From a filamentous cyanobacterium CCP3 (GTDB taxonomy: Bacteria > Cyanobacteriota > Cyanobacteriia > Phormidesmidales > Phormidesmidaceae), in assembly GCA_003022385.1 (NCBI GenBank), contig PYGV01000010.1:1-46529 (forward strand): a stretch of DNA of 46,529 nt, written 5' to 3'. The position numbers and the translations under genes are program-made. The notes under the pieces were generated by a model. The model was not told the origin of the DNA. It saw only the letters and a program-made list of their open reading frames with translations, and made no database searches. Position 1 is the first letter of the stretch, and every line of letters begins with the position of its first letter. This document shows positions 11,116-46,529 of the stretch, piece after piece.

Positions 11116-14100
11116 TCATGCCTCGCCTTGATGCTCTACGTTGTTAGGCATTTGATGGATGATGTTCATAGTCTCAACGCTAACGGTGCAGACCCGCTGG
11201 AGCAGGTCGATGACGTGCTCTTTGTAGTCGGCGAAGCGGTAGGTGTTGAAGAGTTCGCGGATGGTGGGGTCTTTGGGTTTCTTTTCTTTGTACTGGTCGA
11301 GTATCCACTCTAGGGCGGAGCGGTTGCCGAGTTTGTAATCCCAGGCAACGGCGGGCACTCCGGTTAGGGTGGTGTCGGTATCGAGGATGATGTGGCCTTG
11401 GGTTTTGTCGGCTTTGAGTTTGGGTTTGGGGGTTTTCTTCGGTTTGGCGGGGGCGTCGTTGGGGATTAACGATGCCTGTAGGGGCGCATCGTCTTGTGCT
11501 TCTGGGCTAGATTGGTCAATGCGTTTTAGACCGAAGGGTTCGGCGGTTTCGTAGGTGAGGTGGAGATCCATGAGGGCTTTGCCCCAGGTGGCCCACTGGT
11601 GGAAGTCGGAGTAGTAGGGCAGGCGGGGAAATTCGCGTTTGAGGTTGAGTTCGTATTTGGTGCGGTAGGCGGGATGGTGGAGGACGGCGTAGGTGTAGTG
11701 GAAGATGTCGAGTTTGGTGATGGTGGGGTCGGTGTAGTGGGTTTGGAATTGGGTTAAGCCCCAGTCGGTGATGTTGTCGATGCGATCGCCGTTTTCGTCA
11801 TAGCGATATATAGAAAAGTAATGAGATCCGCCTTGCGTTAGCAAATTTGGAATAAAATCAATTGCCAGTGCAAAGTTAGGTGTTTCTGCTCCTATCTTTA
11901 GCCAGATAGAATAATTCTTCTCATTTTCACTTGAGTTAGGATAAAAGTTTTTATAAAGCCCTGGTCTATCTATGACCAACTCTGACAAGTAGAGCAATCT
12001 TTTTACATAAGGCCTGTACAAGCTCTGAGAAATATCAGAAGCGAGGAATTTGATTTTACGACCAGCTTCAACATATCTCTTTAATTGCTCACTCCACTTT
12101 ATTTTATTACTTAGTAAAGCATCTATATCCTGTATGTTTTTGTGCTCTATACGTTTTAGATCGGAATTGTACACTTTGCAGAAGAAACTCATCTTGCCTT
12201 TCAATGCTTCGAGGCTGAAATCATATACCCACTCATCTCTATTAGTGGATATTCCTAAGGAGAAGTCCTGAAAAACTGCTTCTGCTACTCCCTGTGATTT
12301 TGATGCCTTACTTCCAATAGCTAGGAGTTTATCAAAATCATTATTGGCAAGGTTTATCCAGTTTGAGTGCTTGTCGGGCTTAACACGTTCAAAATTAATC
12401 TCTGAGAGTCTATTGCCTGAAAGAAACTCTAACTTATTCTCTGAGATCTCAAATTCTGGCCTACGTGCATAATATATTTTTGCAAAATCTTCACCTTGGC
12501 GATCTCGTTTGACCATAAAGCTGATAGCGACACCTGTTTGTATTCCAAAGACATTATGAGTTGTGCCAGACAGCCTTGAGTTTGCCCGTACATTGCCACC
12601 AAGATCTATGACATATATTTCGGAAAATTCTCTCGAAATAACTTGCCTCAATCCATCAAAATTCTTTGCATCTATGAATGAAGAGTTTGTGATAAATGCT
12701 AGGATGCCATTTCTATCAAGTCGACTGCTAGCCCATCTAAAAAAACGAGTGTACATATCATACAGCTTCGTTTTTTGTGCTTTGCTCTCTCTTAAATACG
12801 TGGCTTTTATCTGTTTATCTATTTCTGTATAATTCCTGTTTCTGTTGTTGTCATTTTCGTTTTCCTGGTTAGCGTTGTACGGTGGATTGCCAATAATGAC
12901 GGAAATATTTTTACTGTTCTGATCTGAAATCCTTGTCGTATTTTGTACGCTCATCGCAAACAGGTCAAACTGCTGTCCTTCAAAGGCGCAGTGATCTAGC
13001 GTATCCACCAAGCAAATGTTCTTAAACTCTTCGTACTTGCCCATCTTTTGCTGATAGGTAAACTCAATATTCAAATTTGCAATGTAATAGGGCAAAATCG
13101 CTACTTCATTACAGTGAATCTCGTGTTTGTACTTGTGCTCTAGCTTATCGTGGGGCAAATATTCAATCAGCTCCGTCACATAGGTTCCCGTTCCCGTGCA
13201 GGGGTCTAAAATCTCCACCCCCGGATCGCTCAGCAGCTTGCCAAAGTGCTTGTGGGTCAAATAATCGGCACTCTCAATCATGAAGCGCACAATTTCATTG
13301 GGCGTGTAGACAATGCCCAGCCGATCTGCCGCTTTTGGGTTGTATGCCTTGTAAAAGTTTTCGTATACCGCCTTCAAAAACTTCTGCTTTTCGTGGTGGT
13401 TGGCGATGTTTTCTGATTTGCGGCGAATCACTACATAGTAGTGCTCAATGCTTTTGAGGGTGTTTTTGCGAGTTGCCCCGGTAAAAAAGGTGTTGATGAT
13501 TTGGGCAATGCCCTGGGCAATGTTGTTTTCGCGGTGAAACTGCGACTCATGAAAGATATTGGTAAAAATATCCTCCGTGAGAATATGCTGAATCAGCATT
13601 TCGTGGACGTCAAATACCTCAATTTCGGGGTTGATAGACTGGCGGCACAACTCCAGAAACATATCTCGCCGCTGGCGAAATGCCGTATTTGTATCTTCTT
13701 GCTGAGCAATGATGCTACGCAGTGCCTCCAGGATGTAAGGAATGTCGTCCCTAAAAGCTTTGATGGCCGCACGAAAGTCACGCACCTCGGGCCGTTCGTA
13801 GTCGATGAAGGCGGCAATTAGCCCATCCAGTTCGTCAGCATCGCGCATCGACACCCGCGCCTGCTCTCGTCCGTGCTGAATCAATACAGCCGTTTGTGAG
13901 TCTTCAAACAGAATGTTTTCGTCGGGGTAGCCCTTCTCAAACTTCTTCTCAATTTCTTCGTCCAGAACATCGTACTGGTCTTTGCTCTCCCACCAGCCAT
14001 GCTCTAGCCGAATCGCATCCTTCACGGTGCCATCTGGGTAGACCGTGGTATTGAACTTAGTTTTGTAGTCTAACTCTGGAATCAGCATGTAGTTGCGCGG

Positions 14101-14223
14101 CTTGCAGTAGTCGTTTAGCAAGCGCTCAAAGGCATTGCGAATGCTGGTTTCTTTGCGGGAGCCGCCGTACTGAATAATTTTGGCCACTTCGGCCTGGTAC
14201 TGCGTAACGATGAGGCGAGACAT
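11116..14223 (-). CDS. Type IIG-like fused restriction endonuclease and N6-adenine DNA methyltransferase
   Basis: 1035 residues from ATG 14223 (MSRLIVTQYQAEVAKIIQYG). The frame extends to 14328, but those 35 residues look like untranslated leader just past a hairpin. The N-terminal 150 residues hold a probable PD-(D/E)xK nuclease: Asp69, then Glu79-Ser-Lys81 in WWESKD. A helical region follows, then the methyltransferase: motif I DPCTGTGTYV (340-349) and motif IV NPPY (446-449), which mark an N6-adenine or N4-cytosine enzyme. The rest (about 600-1035) should carry target recognition. No helicase motifs were seen, so it is IIG rather than ISP-like. Base composition is a mosaic: 11.8-13.1 kb is clearly AT-richer than both ends. 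No separate specificity or control gene is adjacent. Confidence 0.85.
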   Translation of the reverse strand: MSRLIVTQYQAEVAKIIQYGGSRKETSIRNAFERLLNDYCKPRNYMLIPELDYKTKFNTTVYPDGTVKDAIRLEHGWWESKDQYDVLDEEIEKKFEKGYPDENILFEDSQTAVLIQHGREQARVSMRDADELDGLIAAFIDYERPEVRDFRAAIKAFRDDIPYILEALRSIIAQQEDTNTAFRQRRDMFLELCRQSINPEIEVFDVHEMLIQHILTEDIFTNIFHESQFHRENNIAQGIAQIINTFFTGATRKNTLKSIEHYYVVIRRKSENIANHHEKQKFLKAVYENFYKAYNPKAADRLGIVYTPNEIVRFMIESADYLTHKHFGKLLSDPGVEILDPCTGTGTYVTELIEYLPHDKLEHKYKHEIHCNEVAILPYYIANLNIEFTYQQKMGKYEEFKNICLVDTLDHCAFEGQQFDLFAMSVQNTTRISDQNSKNISVIIGNPPYNANQENENDNNRNRNYTEIDKQIKATYLRESKAQKTKLYDMYTRFFRWASSRLDRNGILAFITNSSFIDAKNFDGLRQVISREFSEIYVIDLGGNVRANSRLSGTTHNVFGIQTGVAISFMVKRDRQGEDFAKIYYARRPEFEISENKLEFLSGNRLSEINFERVKPDKHSNWINLANNDFDKLLAIGSKASKSQGVAEAVFQDFSLGISTNRDEWVYDFSLEALKGKMSFFCKVYNSDLKRIEHKNIQDIDALLSNKIKWSEQLKRYVEAGRKIKFLASDISQSLYRPYVKRLLYLSELVIDRPGLYKNFYPNSSENEKNYSIWLKIGAETPNFALAIDFIPNLLTQGGSHYFSIYRYDENGDRIDNITDWGLTQFQTHYTDPTITKLDIFHYTYAVLHHPAYRTKYELNLKREFPRLPYYSDFHQWATWGKALMDLHLTYETAEPFGLKRIDQSSPEAQDDAPLQASLIPNDAPAKPKKTPKPKLKADKTQGHIILDTDTTLTGVPAVAWDYKLGNRSALEWILDQYKEKKPKDPTIRELFNTYRFADYKEHVIDLLQRVCTVSVETMNIIHQMPNNVEHQGEA

Positions 14224-14335
14224 GGAGGCAACAGGTGAAAGACCAGCAGGCAAGGGTTTCTTACCTTTTACCTGATCTTTCCCTTTGTGGAGCCGCGAAC
14301 CCGCCAGACTTTCATCCTTTAAACGCATAAATTAA

Positions 14336-33413: not shown

Positions 33414-36400
33414 ATGAGCTCTTCTCAATCGGCGACTTTAGCTATTGATCAACCCTTGACGTCGCTGGCGGCGTTGGCGGTACCCACGGCTTCCGTACCG
33501 CCAACGGCGACTCTGCAACAGGTCATTGAGCAACTGGGAGCCAATCGAATTAGCCCCCAAAGCTGCGTCTTGATCGTTGACCAAAATGCTGTGGTGGGTC
33601 TGATCACCGAGCGGGATGTCATTCGTCTACTGGCCAGCGGCACAGCTGTAGAGAGCGCCATTGCCAGCTACGTCAACAATGACCTGACCGTTCTCTCCGC
33701 TGACTCGTCTCTCACGCCTCTCGATATTCTCGATATCATGCGGCAGCGGAGAATTCACCACTTGCCGCTGTTGGATAGGGATCAGCAGCTGCAGGGGTTG
33801 ATTACAACCCACTCCCTGCAACAGGTGCTGTCCCCCCCCCATGTGCTGAAGCTACAGACGGTGCGATCGCGCATGACGCCCCACGTCGTGACCGCCCATC
33901 CCACCGATTCGGCCCTGAAGGCGGCCATGATCCTGGCCGATTATCAGGTCAGCTGTGTTGCCGTAGTCGACCCAGAAAACGCCAGCACTCTGGTGGGGCT
34001 GGTGCTGCGGCAGGATCTGCTGCGGTTTCAGGCGCGGCAGCAGAACCTGGCGGAGCTATCGGTACAAACGGTCATGGGAGAGGCCCAGTTTTGTTTAAAG
34101 CCCGACGATTCCCTGTGGCTGGCCTATCAAGCCATGGGACAACGCCATCTGCCCTGTCTGCCGGTGGTCACCCCCCAAAACCAGCCCCTGGGAATCATCA
34201 CCCAGTCCGATTTACTCTACAGTCTTGACCTGAGAGGGTCCCACGGCTCCTTTGGTCAGCTGTGGCAGTCCTTCAACTGTTCGAACCGGGAACAGGTGGA
34301 GTTGTGGAAAAACCACAGCTCAGAACTCGAGCGGCTAGTGCAGGCGCGCACCGAGCAGATGGAGTCCCAGGTTAAGTGCGATCGCCTCCTCACCTCCCTG
34401 ACCCAGCGCATCCACGAGTCCCTCGATACCCAGGAGATTCTGGCCACCACGGTCTCAGAAGTTGGGCAGCTGCTGCAGGCCGATCGCACCATGATTTACC
34501 GTTTTGACACCCCAGCCCGAGGCACCGTTGTCGTTGAGGCCGTGGTTTCCCCCTGGGACTCGCTACTGGGGCAGGTGATTGAAGACAGCTGCTTTGCCAC
34601 CCACTGGGCCGATGCCTTTCGATTTGGTCGCATTCAGGCGGTGGAAGATATTCATCGCGCCGGCTTAGCCCCTTGCCACATCGAGCTGCTGGCCGGACTA
34701 CAGATTCAGGCCAATTTGGTCATTCCCATCGTCTATGACCATAAGCTCTGGGGGCTGCTGGTGGTCAACCAGTGTTGCGCCCCCCGTCGCTGGCACGACT
34801 GGGAAATCCGCCTGGTGGAACAGTTAGCCCGTTCGGTGGCAATCGGGCTGCGACAGTCTGAACTGTACCAGAAACTCCAGGATGATCTGGCCCTCAAGCA
34901 GCAGTACGAACAACACCTGCAGCGGCTCAACGACGAGCTGGAGCAAAAGGTTGACGCTCGTACCGCCTCCTGGCGGCGGGCCACCGAACGACTACAGGAA
35001 GAAGTCGATCACCGCCGTCAGGCTGAGCATGCTCTGGAAATCACCAACCAGCAGCTTCAGGCCGTCCTGGATGCGGTGCCCGCCATGGTCTCCTGGGTGG
35101 ACCGCAGCGGCTGCTACCTGGGCTGCAACCACCGCCTGGCCAACACGGTAAACCTGGCCCCCGCCGACTTTGCGGGTAAGCCCATCGGTTTTTTGGGCCA
35201 GGCCTCGCCCTTTGGCAACTTTGTGACCCAATTTCTGGCCAGCGATGTCGAAACCACCAGCCAACAACTGGTGATGCCCCTCAACCAAACCATCAGCCAT
35301 GTGCTGGTGGTGGGCCAAAAATACGACCAGGGGGAAGCCGCCGTGTTTGTCGGGCTAGACATCAGCGATCTGGAGCAGACCAAAACGGCGCTGCAGCAGA
35401 GCGAAACCAAATTTCGCAACCTGGTCGAACACACCAACGACTGGGTGTGGGAAGTCGATCCACAGTTTCGCTTTACCTACGTCAACCCCAGAGCCGTTGA
35501 AATCCTCGGCTACACCACCGAGACGATTCTGGACTACCAGTTCACCGACTTTATGCCCGCCGACGAAGCCGTGAGATTCAATACCGTGCTGAGCCACCTG
35601 ATCCAGAGCCGCCAGCCCTTCACTCAGGTAGAAGCCACCTGCCTGAATCACGCAGGCCAACCCGTCACGCTGGAAATCAGCGGTTCCCCCAACCTTAGCC
35701 CCGAGGGAGACTTCCAGGGATACCGCGGCATCACCCGCGACATCACCGAGCGCAAACAGGTCGAAGTTGACATCCGCAAGGCCCTGACCCGCGAGAAGGA
35801 GCTCAACGACCTCAAAACCCGATTTATCTCGATGGCCTCCCACGAGTTTCGCACCCCCCTGACCACCATTTTGGCCTCTGCCGAAACCCTGGAGCGCTAC
35901 CGCCATAAGTTCTCCCCTGAAAAGCAGGAGGTGGTCCTGCGGCGCATTCAAGACGCCGTACACCACGTCATTGGCCTACTCAATGACGTACTGACCGTGG
36001 GAAAAGCAGAGGCTGGCAAGCTGATCTGCACTCCGACTCCTTTAGATCTACGGCAATTCTGCCAGGATTTAATTGAAGAACTGGAGTTTGCCCAGTCAGA
36101 CCTCACTCAGGCGATTCAGCTGACGTTTACGGGCGAAACATCCCAGGTGCTAGCCGATGGCAAACTGTTGCGACACATCTTAATTAACCTGCTGTCAAAT
36201 GCCTTGAAATATTCCCCTGACCGCACCCCGGTCGAGCTGATCGTGACCTGCACTCCGTCGCTCACCAGGTTTCAAGTCAAAGATCGGGGCATTGGCATTC
36301 CCTCTGAAGACCAGCCCAAGCTTTTTGAGAGCTTTCACCGAGCGGCCAACGTCGGCAATATCTCTGGCACCGGCCTCGGCCTGGTGATTGCCAAACGGGC

Positions 36401-36503
36401 CGCCGAAGCCCACCAAGGCTCTATTGCTTGCCAAAGCGCCCTGGGCGAAGGCACCACGTTTACCGTTGAACTCTCTCTCAAATGTACGGAGGATCTATCA
36501 TGA
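33414..36503 (+). CDS. CBS-cyanobacteriochrome-PAS sensor histidine kinase
   Basis: 1029 residues, soluble. Four CBS repeats in two pairs (about 15-140 and 150-270) could bind adenine nucleotides. A coiled linker leads to a GAF domain (about 325-480) with two cysteine motifs of bilin photoreceptors: Asp-Ser-Cys-Phe (391-394) matching the DXCF motif, and Cys421-His422 in APCHIELLAGLQIQANLVIP matching the canonical chromophore Cys-His. Their 28-residue spacing equals that of TePixJ. So it is a probable DXCF cyanobacteriochrome, expected to sense blue against green or teal light. A long coiled coil, two PAS domains (about 540-655, 660-780), HisKA with His810 (SMASHEFRTP) and a complete ATPase follow. 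One deviation: the usual His in 'AHQC' is Asn (VVNQCC). The 3' end overlaps the next gene by four bases. A nine-C run lies at 33832-33840. Confidence 0.9.
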   Translation: MSSSQSATLAIDQPLTSLAALAVPTASVPPTATLQQVIEQLGANRISPQSCVLIVDQNAVVGLITERDVIRLLASGTAVESAIASYVNNDLTVLSADSSLTPLDILDIMRQRRIHHLPLLDRDQQLQGLITTHSLQQVLSPPHVLKLQTVRSRMTPHVVTAHPTDSALKAAMILADYQVSCVAVVDPENASTLVGLVLRQDLLRFQARQQNLAELSVQTVMGEAQFCLKPDDSLWLAYQAMGQRHLPCLPVVTPQNQPLGIITQSDLLYSLDLRGSHGSFGQLWQSFNCSNREQVELWKNHSSELERLVQARTEQMESQVKCDRLLTSLTQRIHESLDTQEILATTVSEVGQLLQADRTMIYRFDTPARGTVVVEAVVSPWDSLLGQVIEDSCFATHWADAFRFGRIQAVEDIHRAGLAPCHIELLAGLQIQANLVIPIVYDHKLWGLLVVNQCCAPRRWHDWEIRLVEQLARSVAIGLRQSELYQKLQDDLALKQQYEQHLQRLNDELEQKVDARTASWRRATERLQEEVDHRRQAEHALEITNQQLQAVLDAVPAMVSWVDRSGCYLGCNHRLANTVNLAPADFAGKPIGFLGQASPFGNFVTQFLASDVETTSQQLVMPLNQTISHVLVVGQKYDQGEAAVFVGLDISDLEQTKTALQQSETKFRNLVEHTNDWVWEVDPQFRFTYVNPRAVEILGYTTETILDYQFTDFMPADEAVRFNTVLSHLIQSRQPFTQVEATCLNHAGQPVTLEISGSPNLSPEGDFQGYRGITRDITERKQVEVDIRKALTREKELNDLKTRFISMASHEFRTPLTTILASAETLERYRHKFSPEKQEVVLRRIQDAVHHVIGLLNDVLTVGKAEAGKLICTPTPLDLRQFCQDLIEELEFAQSDLTQAIQLTFTGETSQVLADGKLLRHILINLLSNALKYSPDRTPVELIVTCTPSLTRFQVKDRGIGIPSEDQPKLFESFHRAANVGNISGTGLGLVIAKRAAEAHQGSIACQSALGEGTTFTVELSLKCTEDLS

Positions 36504-37585
36504 CCAAAATTTTAGTCATTGAAGACGAAGCGGGGGTCCGCGATAGCTTAGTGGATATCCTCAACGCCGAAGACTTTATCGTCGATAGCGCCGTCAACGG
36601 CGAACAGGGACTAGCGCAAATCCGTGATTTGCATCCCGACCTGGTGATTTGCGACATCATGATGCCGGTGCTAGATGGCTATGGCGTGCTCAAGCAGGTC
36701 CGCCAAGATCCTGACTTAGCTACCCTACCCTTTGTCTTTTTGACGGCCAAAGCCGATCGCATTGACTTTCGCGAGGGTATGGATCTTGGGGCCGACGACT
36801 ATCTCACCAAACCCTTTACCCACGACGACCTGCTGCGCATGATCCACACCCGCTTGGAGGCCCAAGAGGCGGTGGAGCAAAAAACTAAGCAACAGCTCAG
36901 TACCCTCAGGAATAGCATCAGCACCGCCCTACCCCGAGAGCTAGGGGCTCCGTTGCGGGAAGTGCTGAAGCTAGCCACTACTCTGATTGATGAGGCTGAA
37001 ACCCTGGATCCCGAAGAGGTCGTCACCTTAGCTAAGGCCATCCACCGCAATGCCCAACGCACTGCTCGCCTCACCCAAAACATGATGCTGTTTGCCAAGC
37101 TAGAGCGGCTTAGTCCCGAGCAAATCTCCGCTGAAGCCCTCCAGCGCCAGCACACCAACCGCGCCGACAAGGTCATTACCGAGATGGCCCATGCCATAGC
37201 CGCCGACTATCTGCGCGAGGACGACCTGGGGATCTCCCTAGAGCCCCTGGATGTCCCCATGTCCGAGGCACAGCTGCGCAAGGTCTGCGAAGAGCTGCTC
37301 GACAACGCGTTTAAGTTTTCTGCCGTGGGTACCCCGATCCAGATATTTGGATCTCACGGCGACGGGAAGGTCACCTTCTATGTAATCGACTACGGCCAGG
37401 GCATGACCTCTGATCAGATTGCCCACGTAGGGGCTTACCTCCAGTTTGAAACCGACTCAGAAGCCACCGGCACTGGTCTGGGTCTCACCATAGCCAAACG
37501 CCTGGTCGAGCTGCACCGAGGGGATGTGCTAATTGAGAGCATTCCTGGGCAGCAGACCATTGTGCGAGTGGCATTGCCAGCCTAG
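36500..37585 (+). CDS. Receiver domain fused to a histidine-less kinase-like ATPase
   Basis: 361 residues from ATG 36500, whose ATGA overlaps the TGA of the kinase gene; GGAGG lies upstream inside that gene, so translation is probably coupled. Residues 1-120 are an intact receiver (Asp52 in VICDIMMPVLDG, Lys104 in YLTKPF). A dimerisation-like helical region follows, in which the expected His-Glu-Leu-Arg-Thr-Pro reads ALPRELGAPL, with Arg146 in place of the phosphoacceptor His. The ATPase motifs are present: CEELLDNAFKFS, DYGQGM and GTGLGLTIAK. It is likely the receiver for the upstream photoreceptor kinase, with output through the ATPase domain (allosteric, or phosphorylating another protein) rather than through DNA binding. 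Confidence 0.9.
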   Translation: MTKILVIEDEAGVRDSLVDILNAEDFIVDSAVNGEQGLAQIRDLHPDLVICDIMMPVLDGYGVLKQVRQDPDLATLPFVFLTAKADRIDFREGMDLGADDYLTKPFTHDDLLRMIHTRLEAQEAVEQKTKQQLSTLRNSISTALPRELGAPLREVLKLATTLIDEAETLDPEEVVTLAKAIHRNAQRTARLTQNMMLFAKLERLSPEQISAEALQRQHTNRADKVITEMAHAIAADYLREDDLGISLEPLDVPMSEAQLRKVCEELLDNAFKFSAVGTPIQIFGSHGDGKVTFYVIDYGQGMTSDQIAHVGAYLQFETDSEATGTGLGLTIAKRLVELHRGDVLIESIPGQQTIVRVALPA

Positions 37586-37699
37586 CCCCGTGGCTAGGGT
37601 CTATCAGCTTCAGCCGATTGCATCTTTTCACCGCTGAAGCCTTTCGTCCAGTCTATTTCAACCATCAGGGCCTATTACTTATCAGGGGAGGTGCGTCTC

Positions 37700-39070
37700 A
37701 TGGGCAGCCCAACCCACCTCGTGCATCTAAAACAAAACATCGAAATTTGGAACCGCTGGCGCAATGATAACCCAACTGTAAAACCCGATTTAAGCGAAGC
37801 CTACCTCTGCGCCGCCGCCCTCAGCGCGGCCAACCTCAGCGGCGCTAATTTACACAGAGCCGACTTCTACTCTGCCGATCTGTGGGGAGCCGATCTGAGT
37901 CAGGCCAATGTGCGAGCGGCTAACCTCAGCAGCGCTAACCTAGGCAGCGCTAACCTCTCTGGGGCCAACCTCGCCGAAGCCGAGTTGCTGGGTGCCAACC
38001 TCAGTCAGGCCGATCTGAGCGGGGCCAACTTGCATCGCGCCAACCTCGGTATGACCAACTTGGGGGGAGCTAATTTGGCGGGGGCCGACCTCACCGGGGC
38101 GAACGTTAAGGGCGCTAAGCTCACCCATGCCAACCTCACCAATGTCCGCTTAACCGGGGCCAACCTGACCGGCATTATGGTGAGTGATCAAGATATTAGC
38201 GTGCTGGCTACTCTGCAGCAGGTTACCTGTGACCACGTCTATGTCCTGTCTTGCGTAGATCAGAGTGGCGGTCAGCCCGCGAATACCTACACCACCACCT
38301 TTCGCTCAGCACTGCACCAGTTTTATCAGCGCTTTGTCGAGGCGTGTGATGGGCTGGGGCAGCAGTTCTACCGGGTGAGCTGGCCCACAACGGCGATCGC
38401 CCCCAGAGGCCCCGATATCTACCTGCAATCGGTGGAGCGCCAGGCCAATGGCGATCTGCTGGTGCGGGTCGGGGTCCCCAGCCTAGGGGCCGAAGCCACC
38501 CCTGAGAAACCCAGTGTGCAGCAGCTGTTTAGCACCTTAGGCCGGGGCGACTTTTACCGTCAGCAGCTGCAACTCAAGGAAGAGCAAATGGCTACCGTGC
38601 AGCGGCAAAACGACGAGCTGCTCGAGTTGCTCAAGGCCATGACTCGGAAAAACGTTTACGTTCAATCTGTTTCTGTTTTGGAGAACAACATTATGACTGG
38701 TGTATCTAAGTACGACCTGCGGGGAGCTAATATCGGCAGCTTTGCCGACACGGTGGCAGACGGTGGTCAGCAGCAGGTGGTGCAATACAATCAATCCGAC
38801 GATGATACGGTGCTAGACCTACAGACACTCAAGGAGCTGGAAGACATCTTTCGGAAGCTGGCTGGACAAGCATCTCAAGTGCCTGCCCACCAGCGGCCCC
38901 AGGTGGTGGGTCAGGTGCTGAAGAAAAAGGCGATCGCCAATCCCGACTTCAAGCAGCGCCTCTTTCAGGCCATTGAGTCGGGCAGCGCCGAGCTGATCCG
39001 GGTCTTTACCCACAATCCCTACGTCAGCATTCCCATGGCCCTGGTCAAGGGATGGGTGACCGCTACCTAG
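37700..39070 (+). CDS. Pentapeptide-repeat protein with coiled coil and helical C-terminal domain
   Basis: 456 residues from ATG 37700, eight bases after GGGAGG; the upstream GTG at 37691 is too close to it. Residues about 30-160 contain more than 20 A(N/D)LSx-type pentapeptides (for example ANLSGANLHRADFYSADLWG), which fold as a right-handed quadrilateral beta-helix. A globular middle region (about 165-290) of unknown fold follows, then a short coiled coil (about 295-320, LQLKEEQMATVQRQNDELLE). A segment starting SKYDLRGANIGSFADTVADG is also seen in other cyanobacterial pentapeptide proteins. The C-terminal helical domain (about 370-456) is of unknown fold. Cytoplasmic, probably a scaffold; position among signalling genes suggests a part in the same pathway, but this is inference. 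Confidence 0.85.
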   Translation: MGSPTHLVHLKQNIEIWNRWRNDNPTVKPDLSEAYLCAAALSAANLSGANLHRADFYSADLWGADLSQANVRAANLSSANLGSANLSGANLAEAELLGANLSQADLSGANLHRANLGMTNLGGANLAGADLTGANVKGAKLTHANLTNVRLTGANLTGIMVSDQDISVLATLQQVTCDHVYVLSCVDQSGGQPANTYTTTFRSALHQFYQRFVEACDGLGQQFYRVSWPTTAIAPRGPDIYLQSVERQANGDLLVRVGVPSLGAEATPEKPSVQQLFSTLGRGDFYRQQLQLKEEQMATVQRQNDELLELLKAMTRKNVYVQSVSVLENNIMTGVSKYDLRGANIGSFADTVADGGQQQVVQYNQSDDDTVLDLQTLKELEDIFRKLAGQASQVPAHQRPQVVGQVLKKKAIANPDFKQRLFQAIESGSAELIRVFTHNPYVSIPMALVKGWVTAT

Positions 39071-39270
39071 GGGCTGGGGGGTCTTGTCGGAGAGGCTAAG
39101 GCTGTGGAATGACGTGTCGATTCTGTTACGCTTGCCGGGCTATTCCCGCCCGGCGGGAACCCTTAGGTTAATCGTACAATGCCTTTTATCGCCTCTCTGC
39201 TCCCCATTCCCAGCGGCGCTGGAGGGCTCGATGCTTCCTCGCTGTGCCCAACGGGAGACCCATTTCGGCT
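39071..39270. other. Gap with two overlapping, mutually exclusive hairpins
   Basis: GCCGGGC (39134-39140) can pair with GCCCGGC (39148-39154). TTCCCGCC (39143-39150) can instead pair with GGCGGGAA (39152-39159). The two structures share bases, so only one can form. There is no T run. It may be the terminator of the pentapeptide gene or a leader structure for the next kinase gene. Confidence 0.45.
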
Positions 39271-42200
39271 ATGACTGCAGATTCGCCAGACGCTTCCAAC
39301 AGTGAAGAGTTTGCCTACCAACAGCTGTTTTGGGTCTGCCCAGAGCCGATGTGGGTCTACGACCTGGAAACCCTGCAGTTTCTGGCCGTGAATGATGCGG
39401 CGGTGGAGCGCTACGGCTATTCCCGCGACCAGTTTCTGGCCATGACCATCCGAGATATTCGCCCTCCAGAGGATATACCAGCCCTGCTGGACAATATTGC
39501 TCGGGTGACGGAGGGGTTTGACTTTGCGGGGGTTTGGCAGCATCGCCTGGCCGATGGGCGAGTCATTCTGGTGAAGATTACATCCCACACCTTGGAGTTT
39601 AGAGGTCGCCCAGCGGAAGTGGTGCTGGCTCACGACGTGACCGAACAAAAGCGACTGGAGCAGACCCAAACCGAAACTGCTGCTCATTTACAACGGCTGA
39701 ACCAACAGCTACAGGAACGAGAACAGGCCTTAAATACGGCCCAGCGCATTGGCAATATGGGAAGCTGGCAGCTTCAGGTTGATAGCCAATTGCTGACTTG
39801 GTCAGAGCATATTTTCAGGATCTTTGAGATTTCCCAAGCTGAGTTTAGAGGTACCTTCGAGGCGTTTTTGGAGTTCATTCATCCAGAAGATCGCGTGGAC
39901 TTTTTGAAGGAGCAGGAGGCCGCTCTGGCGGGAGAACGCCCCCTGGATGTTCAGCATCGGATTATCTGTCTCAATGGGCTAGTGAAGACGGTTCATGAGC
40001 GGGCGGAATTGTTGCAGTCACCGCAGGGGCTTCTGCTATCGGGAACCGTTCAAGATGTAACCCGTTGGGTTGAAACCGAGGCCCAGTCTCGAAAAAACGA
40101 GGCCCTGCTCAAAATTGCCGGTCAGGTGGCGCATTTTGGCGGCTGGTCTGTCGACCTCAGCACCGGCGAGGCGGAATGGTCTGAAGAGGTCTGCGCCATC
40201 CATGAAGTCGCCACCGAGGGCACCAGAACAGTGTCGGTGGAAGACGGCATTAATTTCTATGCCCCCGAATATCGCGATCGCATTCGCACCGTGTTTACCA
40301 CCTGTGTCCAATCGGGCATTCCCTTTGACGAAGAACTACAAATTATTACCGCTAAGGGCAACCGAGTTTGGGTACGGGCGGTGGGCGAAGCGGTCCGTAA
40401 CTCAGTCGGCGAGATTGTTCGCATCCAGGGGGCGTTTCAGAATATTGACGCGCAAAAGCAGGTCGAGCAGGCGCTGGTGTTGAGCCAGCGGCGCTTTCAG
40501 CAGCTGGCCGACGCCCTACCCCAGATGGTTTTTACTGCCGAACCCGACGGTACCGTTGACTACGCCAACCAGACCTACTACCGCTATCGAGGCATCGCCG
40601 CTACCGCCATTGACCTGCGCGCCGGAGACTGGATTCATGGTCTGCATCCCGACGATGTAGACCTCTGCCTGCAAAAAGCCCGAGAGGCCGTCATGGCGGA
40701 CACCGCCTTTCAGCTAGAGTATCGGATTCGACGCAGCGACGGTGACTATCGCTGGCATCTGGTTACAGCCCAGCCCATCCACGACGACGCTGGCAACCGG
40801 ATCAAGTGGTATGGGTCAGCCCTAGATATCCACGATCGCAGGCTGGCCGAAGCGGCGGCTCAATCCCTGGCCGATCGCCTCAACCTGACGCTGGAGAGCA
40901 TCAGCGACGGCTTTTTTATTCTCAATCGCAATTGGCACTTTACCTTTCTCAACCGAGAGGCCGAGCAGCTGCTGCAGCGATCGCGCACCGAGCTACTGGG
41001 GCGAGAGGTCTGGCAGGAGTTTCCAGAGGCCGTCGACAGCGAGATTTATCATGCCTACCACCAGGCCATGGCAACGGGGCTATCGACCAGCCTCAAGTTC
41101 TTCTATCCGCCCCTCGACACCTGGTTTGACGTCAGCGCCTATCCCTCTGCGGAGGGGTTGGCCGTTTATTTTCGCAATATCACCGAGCAAAAAGCAATCC
41201 AGGAACAGCTGGCCCGGCAGGCCGCCCTGCTGAATGAAACCCAGGACGCCATCATCGTCAGCGATATGCAGCTTGACATTCAGTTTTGGAACCGCAGCGC
41301 CGAGCGGCTCTACGGCTGGACCGCCGCAGAAGCGATCGGCCAATCGGTCGAGACCCTGATTGACGAAGACCGAGAAACCTTTGCCCAGGCCACCGCCGCC
41401 GTCCGGCAGCAGGGGGTCTGGAGCGGCGTCATGAAGCAGCATCGCAAAGACGGTTCTCCCCTGACCACCGAGTGCAACTGGACCCTGGTGCGAGACGAGA
41501 CCGGGCAGCCGCGAGCCATGATGGCCGTCAATACCGACATTACCCAGCGGCTGAAGCTAGAGCAGCAGCTGCACCAGTCGCAGCGCCTAGAAGCCCTGGG
41601 CCAGCTGACCGGCGGCATCGCCCACGACTTTAACAACCTGCTGACCGTGATTTTGGGCAGCGCGGAGCTGCTGACCGATCAACTGAAACCGTATCCCAAT
41701 TTGGTGGCGCTGGCCGATCTCACCATTGACGCCGCCCAGCGGGGGGCCGACCTGACCCATCGCCTGCTCGCCTTTGCCCGTCGGCAGACCCTCGACCCCA
41801 AAGTGGTGCAGGTCAATGCCCTACTGACCGAAATAGAGCCGCTGCTGCAACGCACCCTGACCGCCAATATCGCTCTCGACCTGATTCAGACTGAGGCCGT
41901 TTGGCCCTGCCTGGTTGACGCAACTCAGCTGGAATCGGCCATTGTGAATTTGTGCCTGAACGCCCGTGATGCCATGCCGGACGGAGGAAAGCTCACCATA
42001 GAGACGACCAACGCCTACCTTGACGCGCACTACGCCGACCAGCACGCCGAGGTGACGGCGGGAGAATATGTCAGAATTATCGTTAGTGATTCAGGCCAGG
42101 GCATTCACCCTGACCACCTGAGCCAGGTGTTTGAGCCTTTTTTTACCACTAAAGCGTTGGGTCGGGGCACTGGCCTGGGGTTAAGTATGGTGTATGGTTT

Positions 42201-42714
42201 TGTCAAGCAGTCGGGCGGCCATGTGGCGATCTATTCAGAATTAGGCCAGGGGACCACCGTCAACCTCTACCTGCCCCGCACCCGGCAGGATCAAGCCCCT
42301 GACTTGGCCCAGGAGGAAGCCGCTGCGATCGTCGGCGGAACTGAAACCATTCTGGTAGTGGAGGACAATGATCTGCTGCGAACCCACGTCGAGCGCCAGC
42401 TCACCTCCCTAGGCTATCGGGTGCTGACGGCCAATGCCGGGGGCCATGCCCTGCAAACCCTGTATCGAGAGCCCGACATCGATCTCCTCTTCACCGACGT
42501 GATGATGCCGGGCGGCATGAACGGGCCGCAGCTGGTCGAGGCCGCCCGGGCGCTGCGCCCTCGCCTGAACGTGCTGTACACCTCTGGCTACACTGAAAAT
42601 GCGATCGTGCAGCAGGGCCAGATTGGCCCTGGGGTCGCTGTGCTGCAAAAACCCTATCGACTGCAAGACCTGGCCCGGATGGTTAGACAGGTTCTGTTGG
42701 AGCCAGCGCCATGA
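39271..42714 (+). CDS. Six-PAS hybrid histidine kinase with C-terminal receiver
   Basis: 1147 residues from ATG 39271 (MTADSPDASNSEEFAYQQLF); a GTG at 39244 is an alternative. No membrane segment. Six PAS-type units lie at about 15-125, 155-265, 283-393, 405-520, 535-640 and 650-760. The kinase core is of the GGIAHDFNNLL type with phosphoacceptor His785, N box LCLNARDAMPDGG (about 894-906), DSGQGI and GRGTGLGLSMVYGFVKQSGG. The receiver (about 1024-1145) has Asp1076 (LLFTDVMMPGGMNG) and Lys1127. This core is typical of kinases that relay to a separate regulator. The stop overlaps the ATG of the receiver-EAL gene, making that protein the likely partner. Ligands of the PAS domains cannot be told from sequence. 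Confidence 0.92.
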   Translation: MTADSPDASNSEEFAYQQLFWVCPEPMWVYDLETLQFLAVNDAAVERYGYSRDQFLAMTIRDIRPPEDIPALLDNIARVTEGFDFAGVWQHRLADGRVILVKITSHTLEFRGRPAEVVLAHDVTEQKRLEQTQTETAAHLQRLNQQLQEREQALNTAQRIGNMGSWQLQVDSQLLTWSEHIFRIFEISQAEFRGTFEAFLEFIHPEDRVDFLKEQEAALAGERPLDVQHRIICLNGLVKTVHERAELLQSPQGLLLSGTVQDVTRWVETEAQSRKNEALLKIAGQVAHFGGWSVDLSTGEAEWSEEVCAIHEVATEGTRTVSVEDGINFYAPEYRDRIRTVFTTCVQSGIPFDEELQIITAKGNRVWVRAVGEAVRNSVGEIVRIQGAFQNIDAQKQVEQALVLSQRRFQQLADALPQMVFTAEPDGTVDYANQTYYRYRGIAATAIDLRAGDWIHGLHPDDVDLCLQKAREAVMADTAFQLEYRIRRSDGDYRWHLVTAQPIHDDAGNRIKWYGSALDIHDRRLAEAAAQSLADRLNLTLESISDGFFILNRNWHFTFLNREAEQLLQRSRTELLGREVWQEFPEAVDSEIYHAYHQAMATGLSTSLKFFYPPLDTWFDVSAYPSAEGLAVYFRNITEQKAIQEQLARQAALLNETQDAIIVSDMQLDIQFWNRSAERLYGWTAAEAIGQSVETLIDEDRETFAQATAAVRQQGVWSGVMKQHRKDGSPLTTECNWTLVRDETGQPRAMMAVNTDITQRLKLEQQLHQSQRLEALGQLTGGIAHDFNNLLTVILGSAELLTDQLKPYPNLVALADLTIDAAQRGADLTHRLLAFARRQTLDPKVVQVNALLTEIEPLLQRTLTANIALDLIQTEAVWPCLVDATQLESAIVNLCLNARDAMPDGGKLTIETTNAYLDAHYADQHAEVTAGEYVRIIVSDSGQGIHPDHLSQVFEPFFTTKALGRGTGLGLSMVYGFVKQSGGHVAIYSELGQGTTVNLYLPRTRQDQAPDLAQEEAAAIVGGTETILVVEDNDLLRTHVERQLTSLGYRVLTANAGGHALQTLYREPDIDLLFTDVMMPGGMNGPQLVEAARALRPRLNVLYTSGYTENAIVQQGQIGPGVAVLQKPYRLQDLARMVRQVLLEPAP

Positions 42715-43919
42715 CTCCAGGCCATGCTGAACAGGCAAAGCTACTCATCCTTGACGACGATCCAGCGATCGGGCAGCTGATGACTGAGATCGCACGTAAT
42801 GCGGGCGTTTTAGCTGTCTCGACCACCACGGCCGAGGACTTCTTTCAGCACCTGCAAACCTGGGGGCCCACCCACCTGGCCCTGGACCTGGTAATGCCCG
42901 ATATCGACGGCATTGAAGTTTTGCGGCAGCTGGGAGAACTGACCTGCCAGGCCAAGGTGATCATCATCAGCGGCATCGGCAGTCGGGTACTGGAGGCGGC
43001 CTACCGGTCGGCGGCTGAGCACGGGCTCAACGTTGCCGGCACCATTTCAAAGCCTTTCTCCCAAAACCAGCTGCGGTCGCTGCTGACCTCGGTGGAACCC
43101 AATGCCCTGGGGACGGCCAAGCTTGCCGAAGACCAGATCCCCGCCAAGGAGGAGCTTGTCACTGCTGTTTCGCTGATGACAGCCATCGAAACCAACCAAA
43201 TCGAAGTGTGGTATCAGCCCAAAGTTGTCTGTCAAACGGGTCAGCTGGTAGGGTTTGAAGCGCTGGCGCGCTGGCGTCATCCCCAGTCCGGGCTGATTCC
43301 CCCCGATCGCTTTATTCCCTTTGCCGAGCAAACTGGGCTGATCGACCTGCTGACCGACGCCATCTACACAGAGGCGCTGGCCTGGTTCTCCACCTACTTT
43401 GCCGAGGCCGATCTGCTGCTGTCTATCAATCTTTCGGCCCGATCTCTGAGCGACATTCGCCTGGCCGACCGCATTGCCGCCACTTGCCAGGCCTGCCAAA
43501 TCCATCCCGAGCGCGTCATTTTAGAACTGACCGAAACCAGCGCCATGGCCGATCCGACCACCACCCTCGACCTGCTGACCCGGCTGCGCATTAAAGGCAT
43601 GCAGCTCTCGATCGACGACTTCGGCGTGGGCTACTCGTCGCTGATTCGTCTGGCCCGGCTGCCCTTCTCCGAACTCAAAATTGACAAAATGTTTGTCACC
43701 ACGGCTATGCAAAGCTCCGAGTCGCAAAATATTATCAAAGCCATTATCGGGTTGGGGCACAGTCTGGGGCTGCGGATCACCGCCGAAGGGGTGGAAGACG
43801 AACTGGCCTTTAAGTTTTTGCAGCAGGTGGGTTGTGACCTGGCCCAGGGCTACTGGCTCAGTAGACCCATGCCTGGGCCAGCGGCGGCCCAGTGGCACTG
43901 TGAACGCCTGGTGAGTTAA
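42711..43919 (+). CDS. Receiver-EAL response regulator, c-di-GMP phosphodiesterase
   Basis: 402 residues from ATG 42711, overlapping the upstream TGA by four bases. The receiver covers about 9-128 (Asp59 in LALDLVMPDIDG, Lys114 in TISKPF). The EAL domain covers about 150-395 and keeps the residues needed for catalysis: Glu183 in GFEALARWRHP, Asn240 in INLSARSL, Glu272/Glu275 in LELTETS, Asp302-Asp303 in IDDFGVGYSS, Lys323 in ELKIDKMFV, Glu359 in TAEGVED and Gln379 in AQGYWLSRPM. It should cut c-di-GMP to pGpG when phosphorylated by the coupled kinase. In cyanobacteria, lower c-di-GMP usually favours motility over surface attachment. The convergent usher gene may be one output. Confidence 0.94.
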   Translation: MTPGHAEQAKLLILDDDPAIGQLMTEIARNAGVLAVSTTTAEDFFQHLQTWGPTHLALDLVMPDIDGIEVLRQLGELTCQAKVIIISGIGSRVLEAAYRSAAEHGLNVAGTISKPFSQNQLRSLLTSVEPNALGTAKLAEDQIPAKEELVTAVSLMTAIETNQIEVWYQPKVVCQTGQLVGFEALARWRHPQSGLIPPDRFIPFAEQTGLIDLLTDAIYTEALAWFSTYFAEADLLLSINLSARSLSDIRLADRIAATCQACQIHPERVILELTETSAMADPTTTLDLLTRLRIKGMQLSIDDFGVGYSSLIRLARLPFSELKIDKMFVTTAMQSSESQNIIKAIIGLGHSLGLRITAEGVEDELAFKFLQQVGCDLAQGYWLSRPMPGPAAAQWHCERLVS

Positions 43920-43947: not shown

Positions 43948-46529
43948 CTAGGGCGCGACGTCTACGGGGGCTGGGCTAGGGGCCGGAGCCTCTAGGTTAT
44001 AAACCCCCGTTGTTTCTGGTGGAATCTCAAAAGTGGTGACGGGGTCAGGGCGGCCAAACAGACGAATTTCGTAACGACCTGGCTTTAACCCCTCGGTGGC
44101 GAAGCGCCCTGTGCGATTGGTAATCAGTTCAGCGTCGGGCCAGTTGGGGTCAGATAGCGACACAATGCGCCCCTGCTGCAAGGCCAGCGGGTTGCCCTGC
44201 TCATCCACGAGTACACCGCGCAAAAAGACAGTGGCCTCTGAGCCGACGCGGATGACCGTACCACTGCGGTAGGTGGGAAAAAGCGCATAGCTGGCTGGCC
44301 CTAGATCGCTCCCTAGGGGGAGATCGGGGGCATTGACGGAGAGAGTGGTCAGGTTGTAAGGCGACAGGGGCACTACGGCTGGCCCCAGGGCATCGGCGCG
44401 GGCGATGTCGCCAAAGCTGCTGGGGTTGATCTGCACCAGCTGATCCTGAGCTGTACCCCGGCGGGTAATGATGGCAAAGCTGTTGTCGATGGGGCGCGAC
44501 CAGCCAAACACGCCGTCGGCAAAGACCAGAGCGGTACCCCAGGTGACGCGGGTGGTGTTGGTCACCGGGCCAGGGATATTTTGGGGGATAGTCAGGGTGT
44601 GGTCGAGGGATAGATTGGCCCGGTAGCCCGAGTAGCGGGTTTGGCTCAGCAGAGTCAGGGCGCGATCGCCCGTAGTGGCCGTCAACCCGGTGCTCAGCCC
44701 CCCAACGGGTGCTGGGGAACTGTAGGACCAGTTGATGCGATTGGCCAGGCCGCTGTTGTCTAAGGTGGTGGTGGTGTTGATGAACTGCCGCTGCTGGGGC
44801 AGCGAGGCTGATATACCAACAAACATGCGAGGTTCGGCCCGGCCCTGGCTGTTAATACCGTAGCTTGCACTGGCATTGAGACTCATATTACGGGCAATGG
44901 GCTTGGAGATGCCTAGGGCAATGCTGTAGGCATTGCTAGGCTGGTTGCGAGTAACCTGGTAGCGCCCGTTCAGCGTCAGACTGGCATTGTCTAGAATAGT
45001 TTGGCTGTAGGTCAGCGACACATCTAGACCGGTATTGTTGTTGGGCAACTCATCGGCGACGGTCATAAAATTGGCTCCCCGATACTCAGCAGCCAACCGC
45101 AGGCTCCGATTCTCGGCGCTGGTCGCCCCCTGAAAGAACCAGTCGTAGTAGAGCCGCGCGGCTCCATCTAGACCGTGATGTTGATCAAGGCTAAGGGCAG
45201 CATCCCACCCAAAGTTGCCTAGGGTGGTGGCCCAGGTGCCCTCAACCCCGACCATTTGCGTGCTCAAGTCGCCCTGAAGATAGCCCCCCAGGGTGAGGTT
45301 ATCGCTCAGCCCCATTCGGTGAGAGAGCGTCAGGGTCGGCTGGTTCAGATTGTAGCCCTGGGGGCTGCTAGCGCTGTCGCTCACCGCCGGGAAACCCAGG
45401 CTGTAGGCAAACTGCTGCACTCCCGGTGCCAGTAAGTCGCCCGACACGCCCGTGGCAAAGTCGAGCTGCTGCACCCGGCCCAGGTCATCGGTAATGACCA
45501 GCTGCACCCCATTGATGCCGCCCCGCAACGGTAGGTTGCGTACGTCCTGTGGGCCAGGGTCGAGGCGCAGGGTCTGCACCGACTGGCCATTAATAAACAC
45601 CTCAACCGTGGAGGGGCGCTCTAAAAAGAACTCAAACCGGCTAATGGGGCGGGTAATTTGGTACGGCTGCAGCGAAAAATTGCGCGCTACGGTCACACCC
45701 AGCATGGGGATGCTGGCCTGGTAGCCCCGCACTGGCACCGACACCTCGCCCACCTGGTAGCGAATGGCGGTCGCCATGTCGTCATGCACGAGGCGAGTCG
45801 CGCCTCGCTGCCAAGTTGGGTTTCCTGACTCGGTAAAGCCCAGACTGCTTTCTAACACCCATCCGTTGACATTGAGGGCGCCGTCAAAGCTGAGGGTGAG
45901 CGGTTGTCTACCGGTACTGCCCTCGGCCCCTGTCCATACAATGGTTTGGCTACCACGCAGATTGAGGTAACCGCTTACAGTGCTGGGCGGCAAGGCTTGG
46001 GCCAGCTCCCTAGGAATATTGGCAGAGTTAGCGTCTACCACAGTGATTTGCCGCAGGGCTGGGGGAACGTTGACCTGCAACTCTAAACGGCTGCTATCGA
46101 AGTTAATGGCAATGCCGAGGTCGCGGATGCTTTGCAGCCTTAGGGTGCCATCGGCCTGGCTGGTGGCGGCCAACTGATCGGCAATATCCGATCGCAGAAT
46201 GGTTTCTACGGCGGCCAAAAAAGCGGCGGTAGCCACCTGCACATCGACCTGGGTACCACCGGGCACGATCACGACCCCCTGGCCAGCAGGCTGGTCGTTG
46301 ACAATAATTGGCACAATCACCTGTCGAGGGCCCAGGTCGCGGGGCTGTCCAAATACTTCTTCGAAAATGTCGGTGGTGGTGGGCTGAGCTGGCGCAACTG
46401 GGGTTGGCTCAGCCTCGCTGGGGGCGTCTTCAACCTCTACTTCATCGCCCCCTGGTGGCAATGGGTCGGCACCGTCTGGGGGCGGCCCTGGGGCTGGGCC
46501 ATCGGCTGGGGCCATGACCTGAGCTAGGG
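43948..46529 (-). CDS. Outer-membrane usher protein (fimbrial/spore-coat type), N-terminus cut by window edge
   Basis: At least 859 codons; the frame is open to the right edge. An ATG at 46515 exists, but the codons before it read LAQV, like the end of a signal peptide, so the true start is outside. A Pro/Asp/Glu-rich stretch comes first, then a beta-rich domain (RQVIVPIIVNDQPAGQGVVI). The usher barrel signature follows: FFLERPSTVEVFINGQSVQT, DVRNLPLRGGINGVQLVITD and LAPGVQQFAYSLGFP, with many alternating strands to the C-terminus. A carboxypeptidase-regulatory-like domain (GVLVDEQGNPLALQQGRIV, GRFATEGLKPGRYEIRLFG) precedes a Pro/Ala tail. Ushers assemble chaperone-delivered pilins into surface fibres. 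No terminator with T run was found; a small GCCCTctAGGGC palindrome overlaps the stop. Confidence 0.9.
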   Translation of the reverse strand, partial: LAQVMAPADGPAPGPPPDGADPLPPGGDEVEVEDAPSEAEPTPVAPAQPTTTDIFEEVFGQPRDLGPRQVIVPIIVNDQPAGQGVVIVPGGTQVDVQVATAAFLAAVETILRSDIADQLAATSQADGTLRLQSIRDLGIAINFDSSRLELQVNVPPALRQITVVDANSANIPRELAQALPPSTVSGYLNLRGSQTIVWTGAEGSTGRQPLTLSFDGALNVNGWVLESSLGFTESGNPTWQRGATRLVHDDMATAIRYQVGEVSVPVRGYQASIPMLGVTVARNFSLQPYQITRPISRFEFFLERPSTVEVFINGQSVQTLRLDPGPQDVRNLPLRGGINGVQLVITDDLGRVQQLDFATGVSGDLLAPGVQQFAYSLGFPAVSDSASSPQGYNLNQPTLTLSHRMGLSDNLTLGGYLQGDLSTQMVGVEGTWATTLGNFGWDAALSLDQHHGLDGAARLYYDWFFQGATSAENRSLRLAAEYRGANFMTVADELPNNNTGLDVSLTYSQTILDNASLTLNGRYQVTRNQPSNAYSIALGISKPIARNMSLNASASYGINSQGRAEPRMFVGISASLPQQRQFINTTTTLDNSGLANRINWSYSSPAPVGGLSTGLTATTGDRALTLLSQTRYSGYRANLSLDHTLTIPQNIPGPVTNTTRVTWGTALVFADGVFGWSRPIDNSFAIITRRGTAQDQLVQINPSSFGDIARADALGPAVVPLSPYNLTTLSVNAPDLPLGSDLGPASYALFPTYRSGTVIRVGSEATVFLRGVLVDEQGNPLALQQGRIVSLSDPNWPDAELITNRTGRFATEGLKPGRYEIRLFGRPDPVTTFEIPPETTGVYNLEAPAPSPAPVDVAP

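Follow-up and report, generated by a model that had tools for sequence, protein, structure and literature searches.

The 46,529-nucleotide stretch of DNA analysed here (hereafter the window) corresponds to positions 1 to 46,529 of the forward strand of contig PYGV01000010.1 (assembly GCA_003022385.1) from the filamentous cyanobacterium CCP3 (GTDB lineage Bacteria; Cyanobacteriota; Cyanobacteriia; Phormidesmidales; Phormidesmidaceae). The present analysis concerns a histidine kinase encoded in the window, in which a tetrad of CBS domains and a cyanobacteriochrome-like GAF domain precede the kinase core, and the gene of a likely partner that overlaps its stop codon. The features of the two genes are given below, where counts out of 26 refer to the rows of an alignment of the window with 25 of 29 loci whose matches span the CBS region and the GAF domain (L066, L067, L068 and L107, some of them with odd match lengths, were left out).

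33414 to 36503, + strand: coding sequence of the kinase, 1029 amino acids, ATG start; four CBS domains, long helix, GAF (DXCF cyanobacteriochrome type), PAS, PAS, HisKA, HATPase_c.
33459 to 34229, + strand: CBS tetrad, about residues 16-272 (Pfam CBS in four stretches, E 1.1e-34), an AMPK-gamma-like disc in the AlphaFold2 model.
33615 to 33617, + strand: Asp68, the ribose-position Asp of CBS1 (GLITERD), D in 26/26 rows.
34014 to 34016, + strand: Asp201, the ribose-position Asp of CBS3 (GLVLRQD), D in 26/26 rows.
34209 to 34211, + strand: Asp266, the ribose-position Asp of CBS4, D in 6/26 rows (the window, L052, L053, L054, L055 and L079).
34230 to 34418, + strand: long helix between the CBS tetrad and the GAF domain, residues 273-335, assigned by DSSP on the model, with an ART (ERT-type) signalling-helix signature.
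34425 to 34847, + strand: GAF domain of the DXCF cyanobacteriochrome type, residues 338-478 (Pfam, E 3.2e-21).
34584 to 34595, + strand: DSCF motif (391-394, by motif) with the second cysteine, Cys393; C in 23/26 rows.
34674 to 34679, + strand: Cys421-His422, the canonical bilin-attachment cysteine and adjacent His (CHIELL, 421-426); C in 24/26 and H in 23/26 rows.
About residues 545-650, + strand: first PAS domain, limits estimated (two stretches match the Pfam PAS model).
35424 to 35759, + strand: second PAS domain (PAS_4 by Pfam), residues 671-782.
35814 to 36017, + strand: HisKA, residues 801-868 (Pfam), with the phospho-acceptor His810 in HEFRTPL (810-816, by motif).
36156 to 36479, + strand: HATPase_c, residues 915-1022 (Pfam, whole-protein E 2.3e-26).
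36500 to 37585, + strand: likely partner, a REC receiver followed by HATPase_c with a degenerate HisKA; its start overlaps the kinase stop (ATGA at 36500).

The ATG start of the kinase is supported by colinear Met/N-termini in three relatives (L052, L053 and L079). With HisKA carrying His810 and a HATPase_c domain, the protein is an orthodox sensor histidine kinase, and Pfam bears out the four CBS repeats which the original prediction, made from the sequence without database searches, had placed ahead of its GAF domain. NCBIfam offered no specific name for the kinase or the downstream gene, the matches shown being far under the cut-offs.

Among solved structures, the GAF domain is best matched by TePixJ (3vv4, E 2e-33) and PPHK (6oap, E 3.5e-33), followed by other cyanobacteriochromes and phytochromes, with miRFPnano and RcaE among the top matches. 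Its pairing with TePixJ is gapless, 56 of 120 residues being identical, and Asp391, Cys393, Phe394, His397, Trp398, Arg406, Asp412, Cys421 and His422 match TePixJ, whose residue numbers were anchored on the Cys494 stated in the original prediction. The DSCF motif, the Cys421-His422 pair and the 28-residue spacing of TePixJ, all reported in that prediction, are confirmed by the motifs of the open reading frame and this gapless pairing, and the GAF portion of the AlphaFold2 model matches TePixJ 4glq with a Z score of 24.6 and a root-mean-square deviation of 2.1 over 149 residues. Judged by sequence, predicted fold and key residues, the domain is thus a putative DXCF-type cyanobacteriochrome GAF and stands nearer to the cyanobacteriochromes than to the bilin-free GAFs, among which the alignment did not place it; the bilin-free class was rejected on account of both cysteines, the CH motif and the cyanobacteriochrome-type predicted fold. 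A caveat had been raised earlier over the VVNQCC stretch (residues 450-455), where the His usual in photoreceptors is missing. It is weak because PPHK, reported to bind phycocyanobilin (PMC11480761), has Asn at the same place in an identical VVNQC stretch; position 452 moreover varies among the CBS-GAF proteins (nine of the 26 rows have H and eight have N), and VVNQCC was dropped as a strong objection to bilin binding.

Conservation of the two cysteines was examined in the relatives. The canonical cysteine is present in 24, the second in 23 and both in 22 of the 26 aligned CBS-GAF proteins, so that the pair is not due to chance; in a second, partly overlapping sample both occur in 27 of 30 fetched CBS-GAF matches (hand count). 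A narrower alignment, of the window with 15 of the 29 other loci, served as the query of the family search, from which the best 80 loci were kept; its members were chosen for having both cysteines, and their invariance there is not evidence. Losses among the CBS-GAF relatives concern both cysteines in L016, L019 and L074, the second in L017 and the canonical one in L064. In L016 and L019, a CBS tetrad is followed by a GAF domain devoid of either cysteine; the CBS part therefore persists without a bilin site.

The six nearest relatives, among the matches listed, are from Nodosilinea nodulosa PCC 7104 (L052 and L053), Nodosilinea sp. LEGE 07298 (L079), Phormidium sp. FACHB-1136 (L054), Leptolyngbya sp. 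PCC 6406 (L055) and a groundwater metagenome-assembled genome (L056), and are 43-65% identical to the kinase over residues 1-485. The canonical cysteine is kept in the window and all six (7/7), and the second in four of the six (L053, L054, L055 and L079) as DTCF, DECF, DSCF or DRCF, followed by His-Trp as in TePixJ. The paralogs L052 (DSYF) and L053 (DTCF) of the single strain Nodosilinea nodulosa PCC 7104 form a natural candidate pair of colour variants; a strain can therefore lose the second cysteine from one copy while retaining it in another. A GAF tree, which sampled 22 of the 52 loci L080-L131 and from which the short own-genome rows L045, L050 and L051 were left out, joins the window and its six Cys421-bearing nearest relatives at 100/98 within the field of cyanobacteriochrome GAFs; it did not resolve the DXCF lineage of the window, with 25 of 92 inner branches open and the bootstrap not settled. 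The genome of CCP3 carries one gene over the cut-off for a ferredoxin-dependent bilin reductase of the PcyA family (E 1.5e-76), which speaks for phycocyanobilin synthesis in this strain, and 20 matches to the window GAF, of which seven others have a DXCF motif together with Cys-His or Cys-Tyr (hand count).

The AlphaFold2 model of the kinase was built from 26 sequences and has a mean predicted local distance difference test score (pLDDT) of 84.3 and a predicted template modelling score (pTM) of 0.53. The four CBS repeats form a pseudo-fourfold disc in this model, whose residues 11-282 align to AMP-bound SSO3205 (3ddj) over 262 residues at a Z score of 27.9 (VIA-align); the tetrad also matches MJ1225 (Z 26.8-27.0) and AMPK-gamma with AMP (2v8q_E, Z 24.3). 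A Thr or Ser three residues before the ribose-binding Asp of a CBS domain is a phosphate contact, and such a Thr is present in CBS1 (T65) and CBS4 (T263), the position in CBS3 being Leu198. In AMPK, nucleotide is bound at CBS1, CBS3 and CBS4, and CBS2 is without the ribose-binding Asp (PMC5535039). The window and five relatives have the same pattern at the ribose positions (D68, S134, D201 and D266, i.e. D-S-D-D), where the window and AMPK positions were equated by motif position and 'ribose position' denotes a correspondence in sequence, not a ligand contact. G62, T65, D68, G195, D201 and G260 are invariant in all 26 rows, the mean column identity being 48%. The AMPK-gamma-like predicted fold and the AMPK-gamma-like Asp pattern together suggest that the tetrad may bind adenylates, and so lend weight to the adenylate idea of the original prediction.

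The tetrad is connected to the GAF domain by a predicted helix of 63 residues, after which the GAF follows directly. An RT pair occupies the ERT place of this helix in 22 of the 26 rows (hand count), the ERT signature of the signalling helix having been described in PMC1592074. At the other end of the kinase gene, a homolog of the REC-HATPase_c gene lies directly downstream in six of the six nearest relatives, with 51-85% identity and a start between -7 and +24 bases from the kinase stop. Assigned by motif, the H box of its product reads HE in L056 and L057 and RE in the window (RELGAP) and in five relatives; in the window protein, HisKA is matched by Pfam below the cut-off. The downstream kinase core therefore seems to have lost its phospho-acceptor, and the protein looks like a receiver joined to a kinase core that has no phospho-acceptor His of its own.

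The evidence tilts slightly towards a dual sensor histidine kinase, whose activity would be set jointly by light colour and adenylate state. From the domains, motifs, conservation, predicted folds and gene pairing observed, we infer bilin attachment, colour, nucleotide binding, signal integration and phosphotransfer along the following lines. The kinase would be soluble and probably dimeric, with two stacked inputs. Its GAF domain would covalently hold a phycocyanobilin-derived bilin at Cys421, and Cys393 would add reversibly to C10 of the bilin; the dark state would then most likely absorb in the blue and the photoproduct in the green, with phycoviolobilin as chromophore, on the pattern of TePixJ and SesA (Tlr0924). 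The CBS tetrad, as an AMPK-gamma-like disc, would bind adenine nucleotides, CBS1, CBS3 and CBS4 being the likeliest sites, and the nucleotide state would be transmitted through the 63-residue helix to the GAF dimer, then to the PAS domains and His810. The first phospho-target would most likely be the REC domain encoded by the overlapping downstream gene. The photoreceptor half of this scheme belongs to an already known type, and the adenylate half is directly testable.

Several observations weigh against such a dual sensor. For the light input, Asn452 stands where TePixJ has His553 and Phe402 where it has Tyr503, the deep forks of the GAF tree are open and the window is not grouped with TePixJ. 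In addition, the second cysteine is missing in two of the nearest relatives, L052 (DSYF) and L056 (NTRF), so that not every member of the clade keeps blue absorption. The substitutions at 452 and 402 would also suit a GAF domain that binds bilin without the blue/green switch, phycocyanobilin being kept or the second cysteine not ligating, with some other colour pair; the second cysteine is absent from L052 and from PPHK (DQYF), and the Pg state of PPHK absorbs at 562 nm (PMC11480761). Another colour pair nevertheless seems unlikely, the window and four of its six nearest relatives having kept DXCF followed by His-Trp as in TePixJ. An apo GAF, which would hold no bilin and leave the GAF, PAS or CBS domains to sense something else, agrees with the cysteine losses in L016, L019, L074, L017 and L064, and is nonetheless highly improbable for a protein that retains both cysteines and the CH motif and whose canonical cysteine is present in every one of its nearest relatives.

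For the adenylate input, the CBS3 Thr is lost in the clade of the window (L198; T in 19 of the 26 rows) and the CBS4 Asp, confined to the window's own clade, is lacking in 20 of the 26 rows, so that not all the CBS sites can be assumed to be functional. A shared fold is no proof of ligand binding, and the conservation seen in the 26 rows is inflated because similarity to the query family was the basis on which the rows were chosen. The kinase might respond to light alone, sensed by the GAF and perhaps the PAS domains, with the CBS tetrad as a dimerisation scaffold or an inert relic. Such a kinase is favoured by two losses, that of the CBS3 Thr, which the window shares with its five closest relatives, and that of the CBS2 Gly in four of the 26 rows, and also by SesA, a GAF-GGDEF piece of which is reportedly still light-regulated without the N-terminal part. 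A light-only kinase merits a minor but real share of belief; the six invariant CBS residues in 26 of 26 rows, compared with 48% mean identity, are unexpected for an inert scaffold. A dual sensor could alternatively have another adenosine compound as its CBS ligand, such as cyclic di-AMP (c-di-AMP) or S-adenosylmethionine, rather than AMP, ADP or ATP. AMP, ATP and S-adenosylmethionine are all possible ligands of CBS domains (PMC8846402). The CBS-GAF family profile matches several kinds of CBS proteins, for example OpuCA, IMP dehydrogenase and AMPK-gamma, of which OpuCA binds c-di-AMP. A different ligand is rather improbable, given that AMP-bound SSO3205 is the top match by fold and that the Asp positions follow the AMPK-gamma pattern. 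Finally, the arrangement of domains in the model is unreliable: 26 sequences yielded a pTM of 0.53, and the linking helix falls under pLDDT 50 at residues 275-279.

Other genes in the window were also annotated. A pentapeptide-repeat protein (37691-39070, + strand) follows the operon and is also found downstream in L053, L079 and L054; it was not seen in the short flanks of L052 and L055. It is followed by two overlapping genes on the + strand, for a multi-PAS hybrid histidine kinase (39244-42714) and a REC-EAL protein (42711-43919), which likely form a cyclic di-GMP output system. On the - strand, a Type ISP restriction-modification enzyme with Type_ISP_C, coupler and N6-methylase domains is encoded at 11116-14328, and a match to the outer-membrane usher family (E 4.2e-18) lies at 43948-46515.

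The original prediction had considered a kinase combining CBS repeats with a cyanobacteriochrome to be unusual. This does not hold, and rarity of the CBS-GAF architecture was rejected, as matches spanning CBS1 to GAF number at least 79 in at least 53 of the 386 sampled cyanobacterial genomes, the window's genome included; these are lower bounds derived from match spans, not from domain scans of each protein, with four candidates scored per genome. The outputs of seven CBS-GAF relatives, assigned by Pfam, are HisKA/HATPase_c (L056, L057 and L071), HisKA_2 (L060), GGDEF (L059), GGDEF-EAL (L065) and a kinase with a receiver (L077). Locus L089, from a Thermosynechococcus metagenome-assembled genome, showed no CBS match by Pfam; the genome behind it contains one open reading frame that aligns with query residues 19-293 in a CBS match (26% identity) and with residues 307-485 in a GAF match; in this frame, Pfam recognises CBS (three stretches significant alone), PAS_3, GAF and GGDEF. 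Counted from the Met at position 24, this reading frame has RVGD at 676-679 and cysteines at 499 and 527, which we take to be the positions of the Tlr0924 cysteines, Cys499 and Cys527. The inhibitory motif of SesA is given as 676-RXXD in PMC5871770. From genus, architecture and numbering, not from a named record, the reading frame is an apparent SesA ortholog; a similar design of CBS domains and a DXCF GAF is thus indicated in it. The recurrence of the CBS-GAF module and its apparent presence in a known blue-light receptor both count in favour of the dual-sensor reading.

A broader and more tentative proposal, held at somewhat less than even confidence, is that the AMPK-gamma-like CBS tetrad, the signalling helix and the DXCF GAF constitute a portable cyanobacterial module, shared by proteins with different outputs: histidine kinases, diguanylate cyclases and GGDEF-EAL proteins, among them SesA. 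Within this module, the adenylate energy charge would gate or retune how the cell responds to light colour. In photosynthetic cells, light colour has to be weighed against the supply of energy; if the CBS tetrad binds adenylates, one protein performs this weighing. The design itself is widespread and appears to include a studied photoreceptor, and, were the module a reality, the known blue/green photobiology of SesA would describe only half of its input. If the tetrad binds no adenylates, some other reason must be sought for ligand positions that are conserved in all 26 rows.

No description of CBS tetrads in cyanobacteriochromes was found in the open-licence literature, which omits most photobiology papers, and an earlier account elsewhere is quite possible. 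The available parts of PMC8846402 and PMC7291507 do not describe CBS domains in cyanobacteriochromes, and the papers on full-length Tlr0924 (PMC4067208 and PMC4223177) contain no occurrence of CBS. An Arthrospira multi-sensor kinase phosphorylated in its CBS domain is mentioned in PMC7291507, and CBS counts in kinases are tabulated in PMC9953108.

Comparison with characterised systems helps place the two halves of the kinase. Like AMPK gamma, MJ1225 and SSO3205, the window protein has a four-CBS disc, predicted in its case (Z 24-28 for 3ddj, 3lfz, 3kh5 and 2v8q), and, like AMPK gamma, an Asp at CBS1, CBS3 and CBS4 and none at CBS2. It differs in that identity to these proteins is 18-20%, the CBS3 Thr is lost and the tetrad is fused to a light sensor and a kinase instead of forming a separate subunit. 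PPHK, a dual-sensor histidine kinase GAF from Leptolyngbya JSC-1 that contains phycocyanobilin in the crystal (6oap), shares the VVNQC stretch and the CH motif, whereas it has DQYF in place of DXCF and hence no second cysteine. The blue/green GAF of TePixJ (3vv4, 4glq) shares the cysteine pair and its spacing, the DXCF and CH motifs and the His-Trp after DXCF; TePixJ is, however, a methyl-accepting chemotaxis protein with His553 and Tyr503, and is not sister to the window in the GAF tree. SesA, a DXCF cyanobacteriochrome of Thermosynechococcus with a GGDEF output, which carries phycoviolobilin and is a blue/green photoreceptor (PMC8846402), resembles the window protein, as judged from its apparent ortholog, in having a CBS region followed by a DXCF GAF with a cysteine spacing of 28. 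The ortholog departs from the window protein in the PAS domain between CBS and GAF, the GGDEF end, the Tyr after the canonical cysteine and a CBS region of only 26% identity, whereas in the window the GAF domain directly follows the CBS helix and the protein ends in PAS-PAS-histidine kinase.

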